Position numbers and translations under genes: made by a program
Shown: positions 2,664 through 15,504 of the stretch, piece by piece
How the letters are laid out: every line of letters begins with the position of its first letter
How positions within the stretch are numbered: position 1 is the first letter of the stretch
NCBI GenBank assembly: GCA_943704415.1
Contig: CALSCO010000442.1
Location: 1 to 20,339, forward strand
Length of the DNA: 20,339 nucleotides
Source: Parvularia atlantis
Lineage: Eukaryota > Opisthokonta > Rotosphaerida
Direction: 5' to 3'
The notes under the pieces: generated by a model
What the model was told of the DNA's origin: nothing
What the model saw: only the letters and a program-made list of their open reading frames with translations
The model's database searches: none

Positions 2664-4786
2664 TCAGGTCGGGGTTTCGCGCGCCCACTCGCGCTGCATC
2701 CGCGCCGCGACGTGGTAGTCATCGTGCTCTGTGCGCTCGCTCTGCCACCGCGTAAGCCACCACAGCGCCGCTATTGCATGCTCTGCGCACCTCGCGCACG
2801 CGCTTGAAGCACTGCGGGCACGTGTAGGTCGACCCGGGCCGCTCGTCGTCCGGTCTCCTCACGACAGCGGGTGTCCCGCCGTCTTCCGCGCCGGATCCGG
2901 TCCGTTGGCGCTTGAAGTACCGAAACAGCGTCGTCGCACGCGCCTCGGGCGGGAGGCCGTCGTCAAACACGACCCGCACGGCCGGTGCGGGCTGGTGGAA
3001 CGTGGTGGCGTCAGGGAAAGCCGCCTCCTCGTGCTCGTCGGTATCGCCGTCGTCCGCCTCTGCCCGTGCCAGCTCCTCTGCTGCCTGTCCCCACGCGGCG
3101 TGCGCATCAGCCAAAGCAGCATTGGCGAGCAGCATCAGCAGCAGACCTGGTCCAGCTCAGCCTCGGCCCCGTCATCGTCGGCAGCACTGGGCCGCTCGAC
3201 TGCGCGGAAGAACGACTTGATATCGGCCGCGGGCTCGTACCCCGTCATCGCCGCAAAGCCGTGCGCCCCGAGCGCAAAGAAGCGGATCGGCAGCGGCTGC
3301 GCGCGACACGTCAGGCCCGTCCACGGCAGCGGAAGCAGGCAGTGCACGTTGCCGGCCGCGTGGTATAGCGACGTCGCGGCGCGGTTGATCGCCTGCAGCA
3401 CCGCGTCGGGCCGCCGCATGTTGGCCGGGAACGCGCATGACTTGGACCGCATCGGCGGGCCCTGGGCCTGGTAGTTGAGCTGCAGCGGTGACGTCAGGCG
3501 CAGCGCAACCGATTGACACGGCGGCTAGCGCGCCAGCAGCGTCTTCGGCCATCGCCCCGTGATGTCACTCTCGTCGGCGAGCCGCTGCGCCAGCTCGGAC
3601 GAGAGGATCTGCAGCCAGCGATAGGCGTCGTCGGCTTCGCGCACGACGTCAGCACACGTCGAGGCACCGTCTGCTCGCCGACGCACGCTTGTCGATGTTG
3701 ATGCGCTTGGCTGCCATCATGCTCTTTACGCCGACCTTGGGCTCGACTGCGGCAGCGCGCTAGTTGGGCGCGCACACGCCAGCGGGCATGTGCCGCACCC
3801 TTGCTATTGTCCACGCCGCGGCAGATGTTGTACAGCCACGCGCCCGACTCGGCACCGAACCGCTGCGCCAGCTCGGCCTCCGAGTACGCCCATAGGTCGC
3901 CCGCCTGCGCCGCCGCGCGTCAGCCAGCGACTGCGCCACGGTGTGCAGCGTGCCGTCACGACGTTGAGCGTCTGCACGACCTCGTCGCCCAGCTTGCCGC
4001 CGAGGAAGCGGATCTTGGTGAGCGGCGTCGCGCGCATAAAGTCGAGTACGGACGCCGCGGGCAGCACGGTCTGCGCTTGCACGCACGGTCAGGTGTACGG
4101 TCACGAAGAGCAGGCACACCTGTTGGTTCGGCTTGTGTAGCCCTGCCGCGAGCTTGGCCAGCGACTTGTTGTGCGCGATGCCTACGTTACCGTGAGCGTG
4201 CGGCCCCGTGTGCCAGCGCCGCGTACCCGCCGTGCTCGTGTAGCCGAGCTCCTCGCGCAGCGCTGTACGCACCTCGAGCGCGATCTTGGCGGCGAGGGTG
4301 AGGCGCATGTCGTCGACGGTGGCCTCTTCGGCGCGCAGCTGCTCGAGCCCGACGACGTGCCCGCACATTGACCAGTCCACGGCGACGGCTTGTCGCGCGT
4401 TCAGCGCCGTGGTTCGCGATCAGCACGGTCGCGTGCTCACCGCCGGCGTGGTACTCGGGCAGCGCGCCCAGCCGCCGGTCGACCTCGTCCGTCACGTCGG
4501 CGTACATCTCGTCGATGCTGGCCTTCTCTGCCGGCCGCGCACGCGCGTCATGCGCCGACGCTCCCGCGCGACACGTGCGCCACACCGACGAGCCGCGCCA
4601 TCCGCGAGAACAGCTTGAAGATCTTGGCGCTCTGTGTGCGCGTCCACCGCGTCACGGCCACGTCTCGACACGCCACGCGACGCGCCTCGGCGCGGTACGG
4701 GTCGAGCGAGACCTTGTGGCGATCGCGGTCGACGGTGTCGTGGTAGCGCCACTCGGTGTCGCCCTGGGCGCGCGTGCATTGGCCAT

Positions 4787-4821
<35 letters not shown>

Positions 4822-5180
4822 GCAGCAGCAGTGGCAGCATCGAAGGCGCGCCTCGCGGTACGTCGCGACGTGGACGAGGCGCAACTCGGGGCACTTTCTT
4901 TGCGCGTCGCCGGCCGTGTCAAAGCTGCGATCGCGGCGATGTCCGTGAGGCCGTCGGACGATGGCTGCGCGCACCGCTTGACGCCGAACGCGCGCGCCGC
5001 GTAGTTGACGGCGATGAGGCTGGACCACTGCACGACGGCTGCGTCGCGGGCGCGCACGCGCGATCAGCCCGGGCCACCGTCGATCAGCACGCTTCGCAAC
5101 CGAGCGGCTCGCTGCCGTCCAGCGCGAGCCGCTTCGACTCGACCTGAGGCGCACCAGCCGCGCATCAGCAGCCGCACGAC

Positions 5181-5227
<47 letters not shown>

Positions 5228-5323
5228 GCAGTGGCACGCAACCTGTGCGTAGAAGGCGTCCATGTCGACGTGCACGATGCACCGCGCGCGCTGCGACAGC
5301 GGCTGCTGCTGATGGTGGTGCAT
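2664..5323 (-). CDS. POLH: DNA polymerase eta (Y-family translesion polymerase)
   Basis: Sixteen exons, read leftwards: 5323-5243, 5143-5101, 5038-4975, 4924-4852, 4763-4677, 4631-4586, 4527-4441, 4388-4227, 4181-4120, 4070-3960, 3904-3799, 3746-3687, 3634-3534, 3479-3147, 3084-2791, 2726-2664. They join to 590 residues, near the size of Rad30. Palm motif HVDMDAFYAQ holds the first metal-binding Asp (Asp20); ASIDEMYADVT supplies Asp137 and Glu138. GIAHNKSLAKLAAGLHKPNQ, IRFLGGKLG and VKSMMAAKR are family landmarks of thumb and little finger. A C-terminal CPQC...HDDYH zinc finger (Cys561, Cys564, His571, His575) matches the ubiquitin-binding UBZ of Pol eta, with a short six-residue loop. It bypasses UV dimers at PCNA-ubiquitinated forks (family knowledge). 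Two introns use GC donors. An upstream in-frame ATG at 5389 is possible but less likely. Confidence 0.95.
3480..3533 (-). other. Probable GC-AG intron 13 of POLH
   Basis: Reading on past PKTLL meets an in-frame stop three codons later. No GT lies between the preceding exon and that stop. Splicing at CTG|GCGCGC with acceptor CTGCAG (54 nt, branch-like CCTGACG) gives PKTLL|LNYQAQGPP, as expected for the family's conserved segment. The donor differs from the common local GTGCGC by one base. Confidence 0.75.
4764..4851 (-). other. Probable GC-AG intron 4 of POLH, carrying a CTG repeat
   Basis: Donor GAG|GCGCGC and acceptor GCCCAG (88 nt) give LVHVATYRE|GDTEWRYHD, matching the conserved HVATY-x-EG stretch of fungal Pol eta. 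GT alternatives in the right phase exist only upstream and would delete part of that motif. The intron contains (CTG)11 on the gene strand. Confidence 0.7.
4787..4819 (+). repeat. (CAG)11 microsatellite, intronic
   Basis: Eleven perfect CAG units on the plus strand, flanked by imperfect units, lie within intron 4 of the polymerase gene, so they read as CTG in the transcript. Open frames through it (poly-Gln, poly-Ala, poly-Cys) are artefacts. Confidence 0.95.
5184..5225 (+). repeat. (CAG)14 microsatellite, intronic
   Basis: Fourteen perfect CAG units lie in intron 1 (5144-5242) of the polymerase gene, reading CTG in the transcript. It is the longest triplet array in the window and lies close to the donor site. 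The flank GCCACTGCCGCTG resembles the start of the repeat in intron 4. Confidence 0.95.
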
Positions 5324-5420
5324 CGGAGAGTCGTGCAACGTGCCCACAGTGCCGTGCGCGCGGCAAACAAGGACACACAAAGGATGCATCACTCGCCCAC
5401 GACCCCGACCCCGGGCCGGC

Positions 5421-7965
5421 TCAGAACATCTTGGTGCGCAGCATGTGGCGCGCCGTCGGCTCCTTGCGCTCCGGGTCGTACGAGAGCGAGTCGAGGAAGT
5501 CACAGTACTCGCCGCGGAAGCCCGACTCGGAGAAGCTCGCCGGCGTCGTCAGGCGCATGCTGACGTCGCCGGCCGCGCTGTACTGCGGCCACTGCGGCTG
5601 CTCGCTCGCACACGCATCAGCCTGGAGCACGCCCACAAAGGCAGCGCGCACCTGGCCGACCACGTTCGGGTTGCCCGTGCGCGCAAACGTGCCAAAGTAG
5701 TCGATCGTCGTGTCGGCCAGGCGCAGCTCGTCCGCTGGCAGCTGGAAAAAGATGGGCGCCGTGTTGAACACGAACGGCATATCCACGCCGTGGCACGAGT
5801 AGCCCACACAGCTGTGTCACGCGCCATCGCTCAGCCCGCGCACTTCACGCACGCGCGCGTCAACGCACTAGTCGTAGTTCGGGCCCCATCCGTCAAACGA
5901 CCATGGGTGATCAAAGATGTAGAGGAACGTCGGCGTCTGCGCAGCGTGCGTCGGTGCACTTGCGCCGCCCACGCGACCCGACGCACGTATTTCGCCAGCG
6001 CGCGCGCCACGTAGCGGTTCGGGCACGTGAAGACCAGGTCCGTGCCAAGCGTCCACATGAGCGGGCGCTGGTCGACGTCACCGGGCAGCGGCGGGTATAC
6101 CTCCTGCGCCAGCGTCGCATTCTCCTTGAAAACGACGCGTCTGTCCGGCAAACGTATCAGGCTGCGAGCTGTATCCAGCCGGCAGGACGCACGTCAACGC
6201 GATGTACTCGGCACGGCCGACGGGCTCGGACCAGCCCAGGTTGATGTAGAGAACGGTCTCCTCGCGCACGGTACCGACGATGATCGGCACGCGCGCAAAT
6301 TCACCGCGCATCATTAGGTTGAACGGCTGGTCGGCGATGTCGTCGCCGTCGACTGCGGGCATCGCTCAGCAGCGAGCGACGCACACACACACACACACGG
6401 CCGCACGCACCGGACGGCAGGAGCTGCATGAATGCCGAGATGGGCTCGTCGATCGGCAGGTAGCGCGTGGCGGCCTCCTGGCCGGCGATAATTTCGTCGG
6501 TCGTCTGCGCAGAAGTCAGACGCCTGTCCCGCGAGTCGTTGCCGGACGCACCAGCAGGTACAGGCACTCTGTGTCGGCGGCAGAGCAGCCGACGGCCTCC
6601 GCAAAACGGTCGGCCAACGCAAGCGCGTCCTACGTCGAGCGCGTCAGGTGCGACAAACGCGAAATGCACGGGCGCACCTCCTTGTTTGATGTGACGATCG
6701 TCATCGGGTCCGACTCAATGATCGCGCGGTGGAACAGGCCGCGCGAGTACTTGGAGACGAGGTGGTACGAGACCGAGCGCCCGCCGGCCGACTGGCCAAA
6801 GATCGTGACCTGGCACCGCCACGCACATGTGTCAGGCGGAGACCAGCAAGCTGAGCGCGCGCACCAGATTCGGGTTGCCACCAAAGCCCGCGATGTTGTC
6901 GCGCACCCACGTCAGCACCATGCGTTGGTCCTGCATGCCCAAGTTTTGCACGGCGCCGCCGCTGCAGTCGAGCGTTAGTCGGCGAGGAAGGCGCGGGGCA
7001 CACGCGGCGCACTTGATGCCGGGCGCGACCAGGTAGCCGAGCGCGCCGAGGCGGTACGCGGCTGTGACGACGATGACTGCGCGCGCACAGACGGTCAGGC
7101 ATGAGTTACAGGCTGCCAGGCGATCGCGCACCGTTGGTGCGGTTGGCCATGTAGAGCGACTCGTACAGCGTCTGCGCGCACGTGTCAGGCGACCACAAGC
7201 GAGGGGGGGCTGCGCGCGCGGCCGGCACACACGTTGGGCATGCCCTTGTCAAAATTGCCGCCGTGGAAGAAGACGAGCACGGACAGGTTGGCCTGCGCGC
7301 TGACGCGGCGCGGGGTGTAGACGTCTGCAAGCGGCGTGCGTGAGCGGCGATCGCGCGAGGATCTGCGCGCGTGCGACGAGCGCACTCAGGTACAGGCAGT
7401 CCTCGGAGATCTGCGCGCGGCGGCGGCGTCAGGGGCCGCCCAGGTAGGTGCGCACGCGACGCACCTTCTGCGGGCACGTGTGCGGCGGCAGGTCCTGCGC
7501 GCGCAGTCGCGTGAGCCACAGACATAGACAGAGCGCGCGCAGCGCACGATGCCGTCACGGCACTTCTGCGCGCAGCCAGCGGCGTAGTCGCGCGTCATCA
7601 TCGGGTCGGGGCTGCGTGGATCATCGTGTGAGCGCAGTCCGTCCGTTCACCACCGGGCGCGACGCACCCCCAGCTGCGCGGCGGCTGCGGCGGCTGCCAG
7701 CGTCCCTCGCGGCCGACGGGCTGCGCACCGAACCCCCCCGGTCAGCAGTCACGTGTGCGCAGGCGCGCCGCGCCGCGCACAGGCGCCGCGTACGGCACGC
7801 CGCGGAAGGCGCGGCCGAGGTCCCACGTCTCGCCCCACACGCTGCGCGTCCCCGTGAGCGTCCACCTCGTGTGCACGCGGGAGCGGAGCACGCACCGGCC
7901 GTACGCGGTCGTCGCGACCAGCTCCGGGTCGAGCACGAGCTGCGCGCGCGCCGCGACCGCGAGGC

Positions 7966-8001
<36 letters not shown>

Positions 8002-8035
8002 TCGCGGCACGTGACACGTGACCACCCCCCGCCAT
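5421..8035 (-). CDS. Secreted type-B carboxylesterase
   Basis: Seventeen exons, read leftwards: 8035-7896, 7841-7781, 7720-7668, 7611-7548, 7494-7465, 7410-7386, 7324-7233, 7171-7132, 7076-7013, 6961-6865, 6809-6678, 6629-6552, 6504-6411, 6352-6193, 6140-5987, 5936-5869, 5811-5421. They give 580 residues, normal for the family. Features are an N-terminal signal peptide with a Val11 core ending near [24 protein letters not shown]; the oxyanion-region FFHGGNF; nucleophile elbow GQSAGG (Ser229); the acid-loop VGTVREE (Glu354/355); and the catalytic [11 protein letters not shown] (His458). It should hydrolyse carboxylic esters outside the cell or in the secretory path; the substrate is not readable. 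All 16 introns are canonical GT-AG, 47-61 nt. Its ATG faces the topoisomerase gene across 35 bp. Confidence 0.95.
6381..6398 (+). repeat. CA/TG dinucleotide run in a carboxylesterase intron
   Basis: About nine CA units lie in intron 13 (6353-6410) of the esterase gene, reading as TG in the transcript. The run sits between donor and branch region and does not disturb the splice signals. Confidence 0.85.
7967..7999 (+). repeat. (GAC)11 microsatellite coding the signal-peptide core
   Basis: Eleven perfect GAC units on the plus strand read as GTC on the minus strand and encode Val11 in the hydrophobic core of the esterase signal peptide. Repeat-length changes would lengthen or shorten that core without changing the frame. 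Confidence 0.95.
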
Positions 8036-8070
8036 TGCTTTAAAGTGCGCGATTGAGACGGCGCGCAAGC
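8036..8070. promoter_or_regulatory. 35-bp divergent intergenic region with TTTAAA
   Basis: Only 35 bp separate the start codons of the esterase and topoisomerase genes. A self-complementary TTTAAA lies at 8039-8044, only 3 bp from the esterase ATG and 27 bp from the topoisomerase ATG. Core promoters and 5' leaders must overlap the opposite gene or be very short. Confidence 0.35.
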
Positions 8071-11000
8071 ATGCTGGCGAGGCTGCTCGCGCGTCGCACC
8101 TTCGCGACCGAGGCGGCGGCGGCGGCCACGGCGCGCGGAGGACGCAAGGTGAAGGGCGCCACTGCTGCGGTCGGCGCGGTGCACGAGCCCGGCAAGCAGC
8201 TGCTCGACATCCCAAAGCTCGACGATGTGCGCGCGCGCAGTGCGGTTGCAGCGTCGCTGACGCCAACGGCGCGCCGTGACCAAAGGCGTACGCGGCGGGC
8301 ACGGCCGAGCGCGGCAAATGCGTGCGCAAGAATGATCCCGCTCTTGCCCGCGTCCGATCTGCTCACTGGCTGCCGCGCAGACGCTCATCCTGACCGAGGG
8401 CGACTCGGCCAAGGTGCGCGCGCGTCTTGCACCCGTCGTCTATCTTGACGAGCGCAACGGCAGGCGCTCGCGATGGCCGGCCTGTCGGTGATCGGCCGCG
8501 ACTACTTTGGCGTGTTCCCGCTGCGCGGCAAGGTGCTCAACGTGCGCGACACGTCGCCGACACAGGTGCCCCGCGCCCGTAACTCGCAGCAGTCACCAGC
8601 TCGCTCATGGATCACGTGCAGATCGCCAACAACGCCGAGATCCAGGCCATCGCGCGCATCCTCGGCATCGACCCCGGCGACCCGCAGGCCCGCGTGCAGG
8701 ACGCGCGCTACGGATCGCTCATGATCATGACGGACCAGGTGCCGCCCGCACCAGCACAGACACGCACCGGTGGCTCAACGCGCGGCGCAACAGGACGACG
8801 ACGGCGCGCACATCAAGGGCCTTCTGCTCAACCTCGTGCAGCAGCTCTGGCCTGACCTGTTCCGCGCGCGCAACTTTTTGCAGGAGTTTGTGACGCCGCT
8901 GATCAAAGTCCGCCGGTGCGCCGCCTGCCGCCGCTGACGGTTTTGTGCGCCTGACGCGGACACGGCGCGCCGGCGGCAGGCGCTCGGAGGAGCACGCGTT
9001 CTTCTCGATCAGCGAGTACGAGCGCTGGCAGGCCGCAAATCGCCAGCAGGGCGGCAACTGGACCATCAAGTGTACGCGTTTTGCGCTCGTGGCCGTCGCG
9101 CGCTGACTGTGCCGTCGGCGCAGACTACAAGGGTCTGGGCACGTCGACCGCGCAGGAGGCCAAGGAGTACTTCAGCAACCTGCCCAAGCACCGCTTCCCG
9201 TTCTTGTACACGGGCAAGGCCGACGAAGAGCAGCTGGACATGGTCTTCAGCCGCCAGCGCAGCGACGACCGCAAGCGCTGGCTGCTGTCGTTCAGGTGCG
9301 CTACCGAATCGTCATGACGCCTGGCCTTGACACGCTGGCCAGCCCCGAGGCGTGGAAGCCGCTCGAACGCACGCCGACCCAGGCCGCGGCCGGCATTCCC
9401 GTCGGCGACTGTGCGTTTGCTCGCGCGGGCGTGCTCTGCGTAACGCACCATGCGCGCACAGTCCTCGGCCGCGACCTGATCAAATTCAGCCTCGCCGACA
9501 ATCAGCGCAGCATCCCGTTCTGGTGCGCGCGCGCATTGCCCGTCTCTGTGCATGGCACACGGCTGACGGCCGCTCAGCGTCGACGGCCTCAAGCCCTCGC
9601 AGCGCAAGGTGCTGTACGCGGCCTTCAAGCGCAACCTGCGCGCAGACATCAAGGTGTCGCAGTTTGCCGGCTACGTTGCGCAGATCAGCGCGTACCACCA
9701 CGGCGAGCAGTCGCTACACCACGTCGTGATCAACATGGCGCAGGTGCGTGGATGTGCGCTGCACACGCCTCCAACACGCCCGTACGCTCGCAGAACTACG
9801 TCGGCAGCAACAACATCAACCTGTTTGAGCCCTCGGGCCAGTTTGGCACGCGCCTCCAGAACGGCAAGGACGCGGCGTCGGCGCGCTACATCTTCACGCG
9901 CCTGAGCCCGCTCGCGCACGTGCTCTTCCCGCGCGCCGACGAGCCGCTGCTGCAGCAGGACGAGGAGGATGGGCAGGTGTGGCGCGCATGTTCGCCATCG
10001 CACCGCTCAGCCATAGTCGCAGCTCGTTGAGCCCAAGTACTACATCCCGATCATCCCGCTTGCGCTGGTCAACGGCACCGAGGGCATCGGCACGGGCTGG
10101 AGCACCTACGTACGTATGTTTGTGTCCTTGCGCACGCTGCGGCAAACGCTCGCTGCGCCAGATCCCGCCATTCAACCCGAGCGACGTGATCGCCAACATC
10201 CGCCGGCGCATCCGCAACGAGCCGCTCGCGGCGATGCACCCGTGGGTGCGCGGCTTCCGCGGCACGGTCGAGCGCTCGAGTGGGTCGTCATACCGCATGA
10301 GCGGCGTCGTCGAGCAGCTCGGTGCGCGCTGCCTCTCGCGCCCGCGTAAGCTGCTAAACTCCGTACGCAGACGAGCGCACGCTGTGCATCCGCGAGATCC
10401 CCACATCGGTCTCGATCGAGCAGTACAAGCAGCGCCTAGCCGGCATGGTCACGTCGGGCGCGATCGAGGACTTCAAGGAGTTCCACTCGGACCGCACCAT
10501 TGACTTCCGCGTCATTGTTACGCCCGAGCAGCTCGCCGTGCGTACGCGTGGGCGTGGGCGGTCGTCTGTGCTGCTCAGGGCCGTCTGCAGGCGCTCGGCA
10601 GGCAGGGCTCGCTGCTGGACGGCCTCGGCGTGGTCAACAACTTCACGACTGGCAACATGAACATGTTTGACCTGCAGCACCAAATCAAGCGGTGCGCAGC
10701 GCCACGTCTCAGCCGACGGCCTGCTGATCGCTGCGTGGCGCAGCTACAACGCGCCCGAAGCGATCCTCCAGGACTTCTTCCCCGTGCGCCTTCACCTGTA
10801 CGAGCGCCGCAAGGCCCTGCAGCTGCGCCAGCTCGAGGGCGAGATCCGGCGGCTCCAGCGGCGCCTTGCGTTCGTCAACGCGGTCGTCTCGGGCGAGCTG
10901 CGCATCCTCGGGCGCGCGCGCGCCGAGATGATGGCCGACCTGCAGCGCCTCGGCCTCGCGTCGGACGCGCCGAACGCGACACCAGCCGACGGTGAGGAGG

Positions 11001-11317
11001 CGATCACGCCCGAGTCGCTCATTGCCATGCCCGTGAGCGCTTTCCTGCGCGAGCGCATCGACGAGCTCGCGGCCGAGATCGCCGCCAAGACGGCACAGCT
11101 CGAGCAGCTGCGCGCTAAGGCGCCCGCGGACCTGTGGGACGAGGAGCTGAGCGCATTGCAGGCGGCCTGGGACGAGGACCTGGCCGCGTTCGAGCAGGCG
11201 CAGCAGGCCGAGGTGCGTGGCGTCGAGGCCAGCACGGACTCGCCCACGCGCACGGGCGCGGCGCGCGGTGCTAAGCCCGAGACGCGGCGCAAGCGCAAGA
11301 CGACGGAGAAGAACTGA
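8071..11317 (+). CDS. TOP2-like: ATPase-less type IIA DNA topoisomerase (cleavage core only)
   Basis: Seventeen exons: 8071-8226, 8286-8321, 8381-8413, 8464-8565, 8622-8738, 8794-8915, 8980-9071, 9124-9295, 9343-9410, 9462-9522, 9578-9743, 9794-9976, 10023-10109, 10162-10321, 10371-10537, 10579-10691, 10744-11317, giving 802 residues. TOPRIM is intact: LILTEGDSAK (Glu70) and MTDQDDDGAHIKG (Asp147, Asp149, Asp151). The winged-helix active site reads GTRLQNGKDAASARYIFT with Arg406-Tyr407 (codon 9887-9889). Tower and coiled-coil gate follow (GTEGIGTGWS, DLWDEEL), then a short basic tail containing RRKRK. Eukaryotic topo II carries about 400 residues of GHKL ATPase and transducer first; here only about 50 precede IPKLDD. 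The start MLARLLARRTFATEA resembles a mitochondrial presequence (inference); RRKRK could equally be an NLS. Upstream DNA is the opposite-strand esterase, leaving no room for ATPase exons. Confidence 0.95.
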
Positions 11318-11357: not shown

Positions 11358-12569
11358 CTACACCCGGCCCAGCGCCGCCACAAACAACGCGCTGGTGCCG
11401 CTGCGGCCGAGGTCGAGGCGGAGCACGTGCGGCTGGTCGCGGCTTGCGGTCGTCCCATCGAGGTGCAGCACGCACGCCGACGGCACGCCATCGCAGTCGA
11501 CCGTTGGCAGGGCCGGCAGCAGCACGGCGCGCGGCTCCGACGCGAGGAAGCGCGTGACAACGTCCTCGTTCTGCTGCCGCGAGAGCGCGCACGTACTGTA
11601 GACGAGGCGCCCGGCGTCGTCCATCAGTTCGAAGCCGCGTCGCAGCAGCGCGAGCTGAAGATTGGGCAGCGCCGCGAGCCGCGCCGGGTCCAGCGAGCGC
11701 TCGATGAAGGCCGTCCAGCCCTGCGCCGCGGCCTTGAGCATGTGCCGGAACGAGCCGTCGTGTGTGCACTCGGCGTCGACGAGCACGCGGTTGTAGCGTT
11801 GTCCCGTGCGCCGCCAGGCGCGTCGCAGCTGCTTTGGCGCGTCGAATGGGCGCGGCCCGTCCTCGACAGCTTCGTCCGCAGCGAGCGCACGGCCGGCCTG
11901 CTCCGGTGTCCCTCGCGAAGCGACTGGAGGCGCCTCGACCGCAAACGAGCGTCCGTCACCCAGGAACAGCCGCACGCGCGGCAGGCGCAGCCGGTGCACG
12001 AGCGTGCGGCACGCGGCAAGGCGCGCGCGGTCGGCGTCAACGCCGGTGACGGAGCCGTGCGGCGCGGCGAGATCGGCCATGAGCGCGAGCTTGGTGCCCG
12101 GCGCGGCGCACAGATCCAGACAGTCGTGGCCCTGCGCGCGCCGCACGCAATATCAGCAGCCGCCAAAGCGCACGTCAGCGGGCGCGCACGGGCTGCACGC
12201 GGAGACAGGCCACGGCGACGCCGCTGCTCGGGTCCATCGGCACGATGCGCCCCTCGCGGTACACGGCCGTGTGTGCCATGGCCACATCGGCGTGCAGCAG
12301 CGCGAAACGCGCCGGGAAGGGCGCAAGGCGCACGGCCGCGACGGCGCCGAGCTCGTCGCGCAGCATCGCCAAGGTCTCGTGCACATCGCAGCGCGGACGC
12401 ACCCTGCGGAGCACATGGTGTGAGCAGACGCCCTCGGCAGACCATTCGGCACACACCACAGCGCACGCGGCAGCTCGCGCGCCCGCAGCAGCAGCGCGGC
12501 GTAGTCGGCGGCCGCGGCGTCGTCGCCGAGCCAGGCATGCACGGGACCCGGCAGTGTCACCATTCGCAT
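11358..12569 (-). CDS. NOL1/NOP2/Sun-family RNA (cytosine-5) methyltransferase
   Basis: Exons, read leftwards: 12569-12457, 12403-12190, 12131-11358; 366 residues. After a helical N-terminus, EGRIVPMDPSS leads into SAM motif I CLDLCAAPGTK, then VTGVDADRARL, FLGDGRS, motif IV VLVDAECTHDGSFRH and motif VI RLVYSTCALSRQQNEDVV. The STC cysteine is the family nucleophile; motif IV has DAEC where most members have D-x-PC. The enzyme should transfer methyl from SAM to C5 of a cytosine in tRNA or rRNA; the target is unknown. Only two introns (53 and 58 nt), far fewer than its neighbours. It converges on the topoisomerase gene (40 bp) and diverges from the ESRP-like gene (43 bp). The start is the first ATG in frame; a second Met is two codons on. 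Confidence 0.9.
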
Positions 12570-12612: not shown

Positions 12613-15504
12613 ATGGGCAAGCTTGGTGCGGCCGCTGTGGCCCTCTGTCGCTGGCTGTGCGACTGACGCGCGCGCGCGCAACGCTGTGCACTGCGTCGCA
12701 TACGCCCCGTCCGCAGGCGACGCAGACGTGCTGCTGCTGCTCAGCGTGGCCGCAAGCGTGCCGGCCGGCGAGCACGAGGTCGACGCGCTCTCGCTCGCCT
12801 ACGCCGTGTACGACGTCGAGACCGAGAAGGCGCTGCCCAAGGGCGTGCTGCACCTCAAGGCCGCGCCGGGCAGGTGCACGCACGTGATGTGTGGCACGGG
12901 CAGCGCGTGTGACACACTGCCGCAGCGACGTGTCGCAGCGCCTGGCCGCGCTCAACATCGACGCCAAGGAGCACCAGGCCCTCGCCGTGACGCTCGGCCA
13001 GGCGCTGACCGAGCTCGACCGCAAGCTCGAGCCCAAGCTGGCCGAAGGCGGCCAGCAGCGCACGTTTGCGATCGTGGTCGAGGTGCGGCGGTCGTCGTCG
13101 CTGGGGCTCCGACGGCTGACGGCTGACGGCCGCTGCCCGCAAGCGCTTCGCCGACGACATTGCGCGGTGCCTCGTGCCGATGGCGCAGCGGCACGGCGTG
13201 GCGCTGCCGGCGCGGTTCACGGGCGTGAGCGTGTACGACGCGTGCGAGCAAGTGATGCGCAGCCAGCAGCTGGATGCGGCGCCGGCGTCGGTGATGCGGG
13301 CGTGTGCAGGTGCTCGCGCGTCTTGTGTGCGCGCGCGCGCGGCGGGAGCGCGACGCTGACCGCGCGCGAGTACAGCGCTCGGCATCGAGGCGCTGACCGA
13401 GGCGACAAGTGGGCTGGACGTGTGCACGTACCTCGCGAGCATCGCGATCAAGCTCGGCCGCGCCGGTGCGTTGTCATCGCCAATCGCTGTTGCCGTAGTG
13501 CGGTCGCTGACGCGCGGCTGCGCGTGCAGGCTTTGTGCTTGTCGAGCCGCGCACAATCGATCTGCCCGTCACCAGTGTGGCACCGGCTGCCACGGAGGAG
13601 GTCGACTCGCCTGAGCACCAGGCGCGCGCGTCGTCTGTGCCGGCAGCCGCCGCCGTCGAGGCGCCACACGAGCCCACGCAAGTCGTTCGGCTGCGCGGCC
13701 TGCCGTGGAGGTGCAGCCAGGATGACATCAAGACCTTCTTCAGCAAGCTGGAGGTGGAGATCGATCAGGTGTGACCCCGTCAGCGGGCCATGAGCGCTTG
13801 TCTTGACGCGCGACGCGCCGCAGGTGCATTTTGACGTGAACCACAACGGCCGCTCAACGGGCGAGGCGTTTGTGCGCTTCTTAAGCCCTGGGCATGTCGA
13901 CCTTGCGCTGCAGCAGCACAAGCAGCCGATCGGCCCCGGAGGTCGCTACGTCGAGGTGATACGAGCGACAGAGGACGACATGGCGATCTCCATCCGACGT
14001 GCGCGGGACATGTATGGCCGCGTCTGCGGGCCGCCGTGTGTCGGGCTGGCTGAGACTCGTTCTCTGCGCACAGCCTGTCGCCGGGGCTGCGCGAGCCGCC
14101 GCCGACGCCGACCGTCGGCGTGGTCAAGATGCGCGGGCTCCCCTTCTCGGCCAACGAGGCTGCGATTGCGCAGTTCTTCGAGGGCCTGGAGATCCAGCGC
14201 GACGGCGTGCGTGCTCTGCGCGCGCACGCTCTTGTGCTTTATTTTTCACGCGAGAGACACGCAGATCCATCTGGCTCGCCACCCGGATGGCCGCCTCAAC
14301 GGCGAGGGCTTTGTCGAGTTTGTCAACCACAAGGACCTGGAGAAGGCGATGCAGAAGCAGCGGGTGCGTGCCCTGTGCTAGCCGTTTGCCGTGCGCACTG
14401 ACTGCCTGTGTGCGCAGGCCTCGATCGGCACACGCTACATCGAGCTGTTCCAGTGCACCGTCGACGTACGTGGCACGCGTGCGCGCGCGCTATTGCTTGG
14501 TCGATTGGCCGTGATGGTTGATTGGCGCGGGTCTCGGCTCGTGGGGTGGTCTTCGGCGGCGGGGCGGCGGCGGCACGGCACGGCGGCACGGCGGCACGGC
14601 TCGGTGGGATCGGGTAACGGTTTGTGCACACGCGTACGTCTGTGCTCGCTGGTGGTGGCTTGCGTTTGGTCGTGCAGGAGATGAACTATGCGCTGCGGCG
14701 TGCTGCGACGCCTGGATCGGCGACGGCCGCACCCTATGGTCCCTTCTGCGGGGCGGCGTGCTTGCTGTGCGAACCATCGATCTCACGTGCGTCCCGTCTG
14801 CGCCCACAGGCTACGGCGCGGCCGACAGCATGGGCTCGGGATACGGCGGGGCACCGGCGTACGGTGGTGGTCCAGGCTACGGCGGTGGTCCAGGCTACGG
14901 CGGCGGCCCGGTGTACGGTGGTGGCGGTGGCTACGGCAGCCCTGGACCGCGCGGCGGCTATGGCAGTGGCCCACCGCCAGTGATGTACCAGCAGCAGGGC
15001 TACATGGGTGGCGGCCCACCGATGATGCCCGAGCGGCAGCAGTACGGTGCGTGGTGTGCTCTGCGATGCTGGATGCGCAGCTGACGTGCGCGCGCAGGTC
15101 ATTCAGCCGCGGCAACGTTCAACGACGTTTTCCTGCGTCTGCGTGGCCTGCCATTCTCGGCGAGCGAGCAGGACGTGGTCAAGTTCTTCGTCGACCAGGC
15201 CGGTGTCATGCCAACGGGCATCGTGCTCACGCTCAACGCCCACGGCCGCAAAAGCGGCGACGGCTATGTGCAGTTCGAGCACGCCGAACAGGCGCGCCGT
15301 GGCCTCGCGCTGCATCGCGCATCACTCGGCGCGCGCTACGTCGAGGTCTTTCCGGCGTCGGCGGCCGAAGTCTCGACGGTGATGAGCTCGCAGTCGCAAA
15401 GTGCGTACGCGTCTGAGCGCGTCTTGGCCAGTCGGGCGGCTGATGTCAGCGCAGTCATGCCGCAGATGCCCACGGACGACTTCCGCAAGCGCCCGCGCTA
15501 CTAG
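12613..15504 (+). CDS. ESRP: ESRP/Fusilli-like RNA-binding splicing regulator with three qRRMs
   Basis: Thirteen exons: 12613-12625, 12717-12873, 12926-13082, 13144-13309, 13376-13465, 13530-13768, 13824-14011, 14074-14206, 14265-14363, 14418-14465, 14678-14738, 14810-15046, 15098-15504; 664 residues, close to animal ESRP. The first ~220 residues (ADVLLLLSVAAS, TFAIVVE, YLASIAIKLG) align in layout with the ESRP N-terminal nuclease-like fold. qRRM1 has VVRLRGLPW and GEAFVRF; qRRM2 has VVKMRGLPF, GEGFVEF and RYIELF; qRRM3 has LRLRGLPF, GDGYVQF and RYVEVF. qRRMs of the hnRNP F/H/ESRP group bind G-rich RNA. Between qRRM2 and qRRM3 lies a Gly-Tyr-Pro linker. The first exon is only 13 nt, so the start is the least certain part. 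Intron 10 (14466-14677, 212 nt) is long; the rest are 51-91 nt. Confidence 0.85.
14850..14945 (+). repeat. GGTGGTCCAGGCTACGGC-type coding repeat
   Basis: An 18-bp unit, GGTGGTCCAGGCTACGGC, is repeated with drift and encodes the GYGGGP linker between qRRM2 and qRRM3. Such Gly-Tyr segments are low-complexity regions that often drive condensate or hnRNP contacts (family knowledge). Confidence 0.8.

Follow-up and report, generated by a model that had tools for sequence, protein, structure and literature searches.

The 20,339-bp contig analysed here, referred to throughout as the window, carries an intact-looking nuclear gene that encodes the DNA-cleavage core of a type IIA topoisomerase (TOP2), with a short leader in the place of the ATPase and transducer. 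It is unusual to find a conserved, precisely trimmed TOP2 core standing as a separate gene. We put at about even the chance that the product is a natural headless TOP2, in which the leader has replaced the ATPase and transducer, and which would probably be a paralogue, probably mitochondrial and slow-acting without ATP.

The window has a G+C content of 68% and contains spliceosomal introns. The TOP2 gene occupies 8071-11317 of the plus strand, and a model rebuilt independently, by manual reading of the three frames with a check by script, bore out the original prediction of 802 residues, 17 exons and 16 in-frame junctions. Exons 1-9 (8071-8226, 8286-8321, 8381-8413, 8464-8565, 8622-8738, 8794-8915, 8980-9071, 9124-9295 and 9343-9410) and exons 10-17 (9462-9522, 9578-9743, 9794-9976, 10023-10109, 10162-10321, 10371-10537, 10579-10691 and 10744-11317) were placed by frame, GT..AG borders and homology. 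All 16 introns are of the GT..AG type and measure 41-64 bp, the frame holds one terminal stop and none internally, and the GC fractions at codon positions 1, 2 and 3 are 0.66, 0.44 and 0.93.

Upstream, the gene stands head to head with a carboxylesterase gene of several exons on the minus strand (5421-8035). The esterase ATG lies at 8033-8035, so that 35 bp (8036-8070; 57% G+C, containing CTTTAAAG) separate the two starts. An intact esterase 35 bp away had been claimed, and the distance held exactly; as to intactness, the Pfam matches to PF00135 fall in the 3' part only (5421-5816 over the cut-off, 6078-6365 below it), the 5' end was read by eye, and Pfam gave nothing for its first ORF. The esterase start that faces the TOP2 start is signal-peptide-like and includes a stretch of 11 valines encoded by eleven consecutive GAC/GTC triplets (7967-7999, minus strand). 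Downstream, an NSUN-type RNA cytosine methyltransferase gene (11358-12152, minus strand) lies tail to tail with TOP2, and the coding ends are about 40 bp apart, indicating a compact genome. The region 2719-5548 (minus strand) has long trinucleotide runs and is possibly a DNA polymerase eta gene by its motifs VDMDAFYAQV, ASIDEMYADVT and AHNKSLAKLAAGLHKPNQQ; Pfam assigned no family to three of its ORFs. Regions 1214-2566 and 13794-15504 (both plus strand) encode RRM proteins that we take to be SRSF1-like, with an RD-rich tail, and hnRNP F/H-like; RRM_1 scored over the cut-off in three of five ORFs tested from these regions, below it in one and was absent from one. In all six gene regions compared, the presumed coding strand held more donor-like GTGCG/GTACG words than its complement, the excess ranging from slight (19 versus 16, region 2719-5400) to clear (32 versus 15, esterase), and this bias suggests one intron-dense architecture across the window.

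Pfam analysis of the 802-residue protein returned three families and no other at E<=0.001. The TOPRIM domain (residues 65-166; exons 3-6, 8381-8847) scored 33.1 bits against a cut-off of 23.1. It is followed by TOPRIM_C (PF16898; residues 180-313, 8887-9502), matched over positions 1-128 of 128, and by DNA_topoisoIV (PF00521; residues 315-747, 9506-11149), matched over positions 1-431 of 432. We take the PF00521 region to comprise the winged helix, tower and C-gate. The catalytic residues originally predicted to be kept were all found at their expected positions: E70 (codon 8396-8398), D147 (8733-8735), D149 (8794-8796) and D151 (8800-8802) within TOPRIM, and R406-Y407 (9884-9889), which carries the catalytic tyrosine as aligned to yeast Top2. 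The short basic tail contains RRKRK (residues 793-797, 11285-11299) and could serve as a nuclear signal or in DNA binding. The best PDB match, with E 3.5e-187, was a core structure of yeast Top2. In the alignment with yeast Top2 chain 4gfh, residues 43-685 pair with positions 422-1059, and a first aligned position of 422 places the protein start at the transducer/TOPRIM boundary. Alignment with the crystallised yeast core fragment 1bgw begins at position 14 of that fragment, and by this comparison the natural start lies close to the point at which crystallographers chose to cut.

Only 46 residues precede the IPKLDD segment, where about 50 had been estimated. An in-frame TAA at 8041-8043, upstream of the TOP2 ATG, makes an upstream extension of the protein impossible without an intron. 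An ATPase hidden further upstream in the window was considered and rejected, as it would require an intron of at least 8 kb against the 41-64 bp of the gene's 16 introns. Searches by Pfam, tblastn and HMM found no GHKL ATPase or transducer in the 20.3-kb window. Eleven relatives, full-length or cut at the 3' end, supplied an ATPase HMM, which gave no match among the 436 six-frame ORFs of at least 20 aa in the window (best E 6.8). Six-frame ORFs are cut by introns, which is why the control with a core HMM matters: it detected 11 window ORFs with E<0.01, which lie without exception in the TOP2 gene and cover exon 4 to exon 17, with exons 1-3 missed at that threshold. Likewise, when a full-length viral TOP2 was divided for tblastn, its ATPase half produced a best E of 5.8 in the window, and its core half found the window gene. 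For the 20.3-kb window, these results support the original prediction of a gene that encodes the cleavage core only, with no ATPase concealed upstream.

The replacement N-terminus (residues 1-46, 8071-8208, with MLARLLARRTFATEA at its start) is coding-like. Under the codon usage of the remainder of the gene, codons 1-46 scored +0.27 bits/codon, above 95% of plus-strand windows of the same length, and the other plus frames of the leader region scored -1.07 and -1.01 and the antisense frames -0.13, -0.28 and -1.30. A spurious N-terminus was ruled out by this codon bias. The core behind the leader is well conserved. Eight references whose core is complete or almost so share 119 invariant alignment columns, and the window protein keeps 109 of them (0.916); the same count for each reference, left out in turn, gave 109/126 (0.865) to 109/110 (0.991). 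The count omitted three comparison sequences that were aligned and are cut early at the 3' end (L006, L012 and L016) and three that were not aligned (L007, L013 and L015). Five of the ten differences (reference to window) are conservative (L125I, I184L, K263R, E304D and L528I) and five are not (S61R, Y131Q, L137A, N651R and Y703S). In the 445 columns shared with yeast Top2, human TOP2A, 6ca8 and a comparison protein from an Opitutaceae MAG (L005), identity to the window core is 53-57% (55% for yeast), and the four have 55-61% identity among themselves. By this alignment the window core appears slightly more diverged than these four, yet not a decaying copy. A decaying pseudogene was ruled out by the intact introns and the kept invariant columns.

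These data bear on the explanation that the gene is an artefact or a dead fragment, in which faulty assembly, or a recent rearrangement beside the esterase that cut off the 5' end, would have left a gene-like piece of TOP2. We consider this unlikely, although it deserves some weight, as the truncation point lies just 35 bp from the start of another gene. The coding bias of codons 1-46 speaks against it and means that any join would most likely be confined to the 35 bp between the two starts. No break in composition was seen at 8036, where the tetranucleotide correlation was 0.876 as compared with 0.804-0.884 at six other cuts, a comparison that would not reveal a join within one genome. The intact frame and 16 introns, together with the 109 of 119 invariant columns, likewise speak against it.

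Both ends of the protein bear on its destination. The N-terminus had been described as presequence-like, and the features named do exist: MLARLLARRTFATEA contains an R-T-F-A site, and the first 13 residues are free of acidic residues and include three arginines. Among random N-termini drawn from the core composition, 0.67% combined an R-x-[FYL]-[AS] site, 13 acid-free residues and three basic residues within the first 13. In shuffles of the leader's own 46 residues, each feature alone is ordinary (0.16, 0.38 and 0.36), because the leader is rich in alanine and arginine throughout. The strongest helical moment of the leader is also misplaced, lying away from the very start, which weakens the case for a presequence. 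The mitochondrial character of the N-terminus is thus suggestive only, and the RRKRK tail is a counter-hint that could point to the nucleus.

Type IIA enzymes can be divided between genes, and the window protein might be one part of a split enzyme whose GHKL ATPase and transducer, encoded by another gene, join the core in trans. Subunits join in trans in phage T4 topoisomerase and in topoisomerase VI. We compared the window gene with 16 loci (L001, L004-L016, L019 and L020) taken from viral and prokaryotic contig scans plus two phage records hand-picked from 2113 matching records; 13 of the 16 were collected by a TOPRIM motif pattern with no ATPase requirement, and the pairs L007/L010 and L013/L015 look like near-duplicates. 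ATPase and core share one ORF at 13 of the 16 loci (L019 included, and several cut at a contig end). At L013 and L015 the ATPase lies in the preceding ORF, and in Pseudomonas phage pf16 (L020) one ORF holds the ATPase and TOPRIM and a separate ORF the remainder. All 16 loci keep the ATPase joined to TOPRIM or at least to its beginning; none is split at the transducer/TOPRIM boundary, where the window protein begins, and none of the 16 is a natural ATPase-less relative.

The split-enzyme explanation can point to pf16 and to the two near-duplicate viral contigs with intein-like ends as proof that type IIA splitting occurs, and the conservation of the core approaches that of a housekeeping TOP2, which would be expected if this were the main TOP2 of the cell. 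On the other side stand the uniform continuity of the ATPase with the beginning of TOPRIM (16/16, with no transducer/TOPRIM cut), the failure to find an ATPase in the window and a 46-residue leader with no obvious docking domain. We regard a split enzyme as rather improbable, a little more so than an artefact.

Two arrangements among the comparison loci are described for their own sake. At L013 (2-5066) and L015 (8296-13528) the viral TOP2 is encoded in two ORFs split at EGD|SAS; the ATPase ORF ends with an intein-like N part and the core ORF starts with an intein-like C part ending in ISHN. Between the two ORFs is a third, which may encode an endonuclease. From these motifs we presume a split intein with a homing endonuclease. 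The contigs L004 (Cytophagaceae MAG) and L005 (Opitutaceae MAG), filed as bacterial, hold full-length TOP2-type ORFs of 1162 and 1159 aa, the latter 44% identical to the window core; these genes could be misbinned viral DNA, misbinned eukaryotic DNA or the outcome of transfer.

The original prediction held that strand passage by type IIA enzymes needs ATP-driven clamp closure. This premise is outdated, since it is contradicted for human TOP2B, which relaxes and decatenates DNA without its ATPase, with more cleavage (PMC10853770). The same 2023 study proposes that ATP guards against breaks rather than powering strand passage, and its Figure 6 draws an ATPase-less type II ancestor as hypothetical (PMC10853770). 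Headless hTOP2B, which retains the C-terminal domain, relaxed DNA without ATP to within a factor of about 4 of the full-length enzyme running on ATP; the hTOP2B core alone was weak and decatenated kDNA weakly, and in DMSO-free reactions relaxation by the hTOP2A core was undetectable (PMC10853770). Because ATPase-less hTOP2B passes strands, ATP-independent strand passage is the natural reading of the window protein, and a nick-only enzyme is not. The short tail of the window protein argues against easy extrapolation from headless hTOP2B. Such an enzyme could also be costly: in yeast, where the headless form and not the core was tested, it did not rescue top2-4, rad52- cells formed no colonies and recombination rose about 50-fold above that with full-length hTOP2B (PMC10853770). 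Substitution of hTOP2B R757 boosts ATP-free activity (PMC10853770). The matching site is Arg in the window protein (R338), Lys in yeast, Asn in L010 and Ser in L001, and the site matching hTOP2B K600 in the same numbering is Lys in the window protein (K186), so that neither site carries a known activating substitution. Here the numbering of the paper was taken as that of the 1626-residue chain, in which 757 is Arg and 600 is Lys; the Y821 of the paper does not fall on Tyr in this chain, which makes the K600 match less sure.

The increased breakage of headless hTOP2B raises the further idea of a nuclear break-making enzyme, in which the core would make regulated double-strand breaks or nicks instead of passing strands. 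The analogy is with Spo11, a descendant of the topoisomerase VI A subunit (PMC12203943). Both the in vitro breaks and the recombination in yeast would fit such a role (PMC10853770), as would the basic tail if it directs the protein to the nucleus. The analogy sits poorly with the C-gate region, which is needed for two-gate passage and fully kept, with an N-terminus that looks organellar rather than nuclear and with a window in which no meiotic gene was recognised, and we hold this role to be very improbable.

We return to the natural headless TOP2, for which the following mechanism may be proposed. The GHKL ATPase and transducer would have been swapped for a short leader at the domain boundary, and the complete two-gate core (TOPRIM, winged helix, tower and C-gate) retained with a short basic tail. 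The protein, if expressed, would most likely form the usual heart-shaped dimer and cleave the G-segment by means of Y407 and the TOPRIM metal site, and the T-segment would pass when the DNA-gate and C-gate open spontaneously. The expected activity is a slow ATP-free relaxation or decatenation, at the price of more frequent breaks. The protein shares its architecture with the hTOP2B constructs, and two-gate ATP-free passage is for that reason the most economical mechanism. It would probably act in mitochondria, as a paralogue beside a full-length nuclear TOP2 that we infer to be encoded elsewhere in the genome.

A stronger version of this proposal is that a eukaryote has evolved a dedicated ATP-independent mitochondrial type IIA enzyme by dropping the ATPase and transducer and gaining a presequence in their place. 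We offer it tentatively, as a possibility with the balance somewhat against it. If true, a living organism would encode the counterpart of an ATPase-less type II enzyme that others have postulated as ancestral and made as a construct. It is an open question why type II topoisomerases that do only energetically downhill work burn ATP. A natural ATPase-free enzyme with a conserved core would allow the idea of ATP as protection against breaks to be tested on a protein tuned by selection; it would reveal by what means breakage is limited when the ATPase is gone, and whether the small genome of an organelle can tolerate an enzyme of this kind.

Comparison with known systems sets the window protein apart from each of them in some respect. 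In phage T4-type topoisomerase II and the viral split TOP2 (L013, L015 and L020), the ATPase and catalytic-tyrosine parts also lie in different ORFs. The break in the viral split enzymes is located within TOPRIM or beyond it, with the ATPase ORF nearby, whereas in the window TOPRIM is whole and joined to the core and no ATPase was found. Second TOP2 enzymes with a mitochondrial address are known from red algae: those of two species are assigned to mitochondria in a table and that of Cyanidioschyzon merolae (CML330C) has been localised there, in each case as a second eukaryotic TOP2 beside the nuclear one (PMC4166229). The word ATPase is absent from the main text of that report, and the likeness concerns the mitochondrial assignment. 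According to a review, most algae except Chlorophyta have a mitochondrial Top2, and a truncated bovine mitochondrial Top2beta lacks the C-terminal domain, the opposite end of the protein (PMC6514783). Judged by titles and the beginnings of abstracts, the matches listed in the open-access literature included no natural ATPase-less eukaryotic TOP2, and PMC10853770 alone among them treats an ATPase-less eukaryotic TOP2. Set against ordinary eukaryotic TOP2, the window protein has no GHKL ATPase or transducer and has a short unrelated leader and a short C-terminal tail, and it shares the complete TOPRIM, TOPRIM_C and gyrase-A-like core with the active-site E, DxDxD and R-Y. The engineered headless and core forms of hTOP2B are laboratory constructs, and the window protein is an encoded gene product with a leader of its own, known from its DNA; in domain content the two are the same, and they begin at nearly the same point (PMC10853770).
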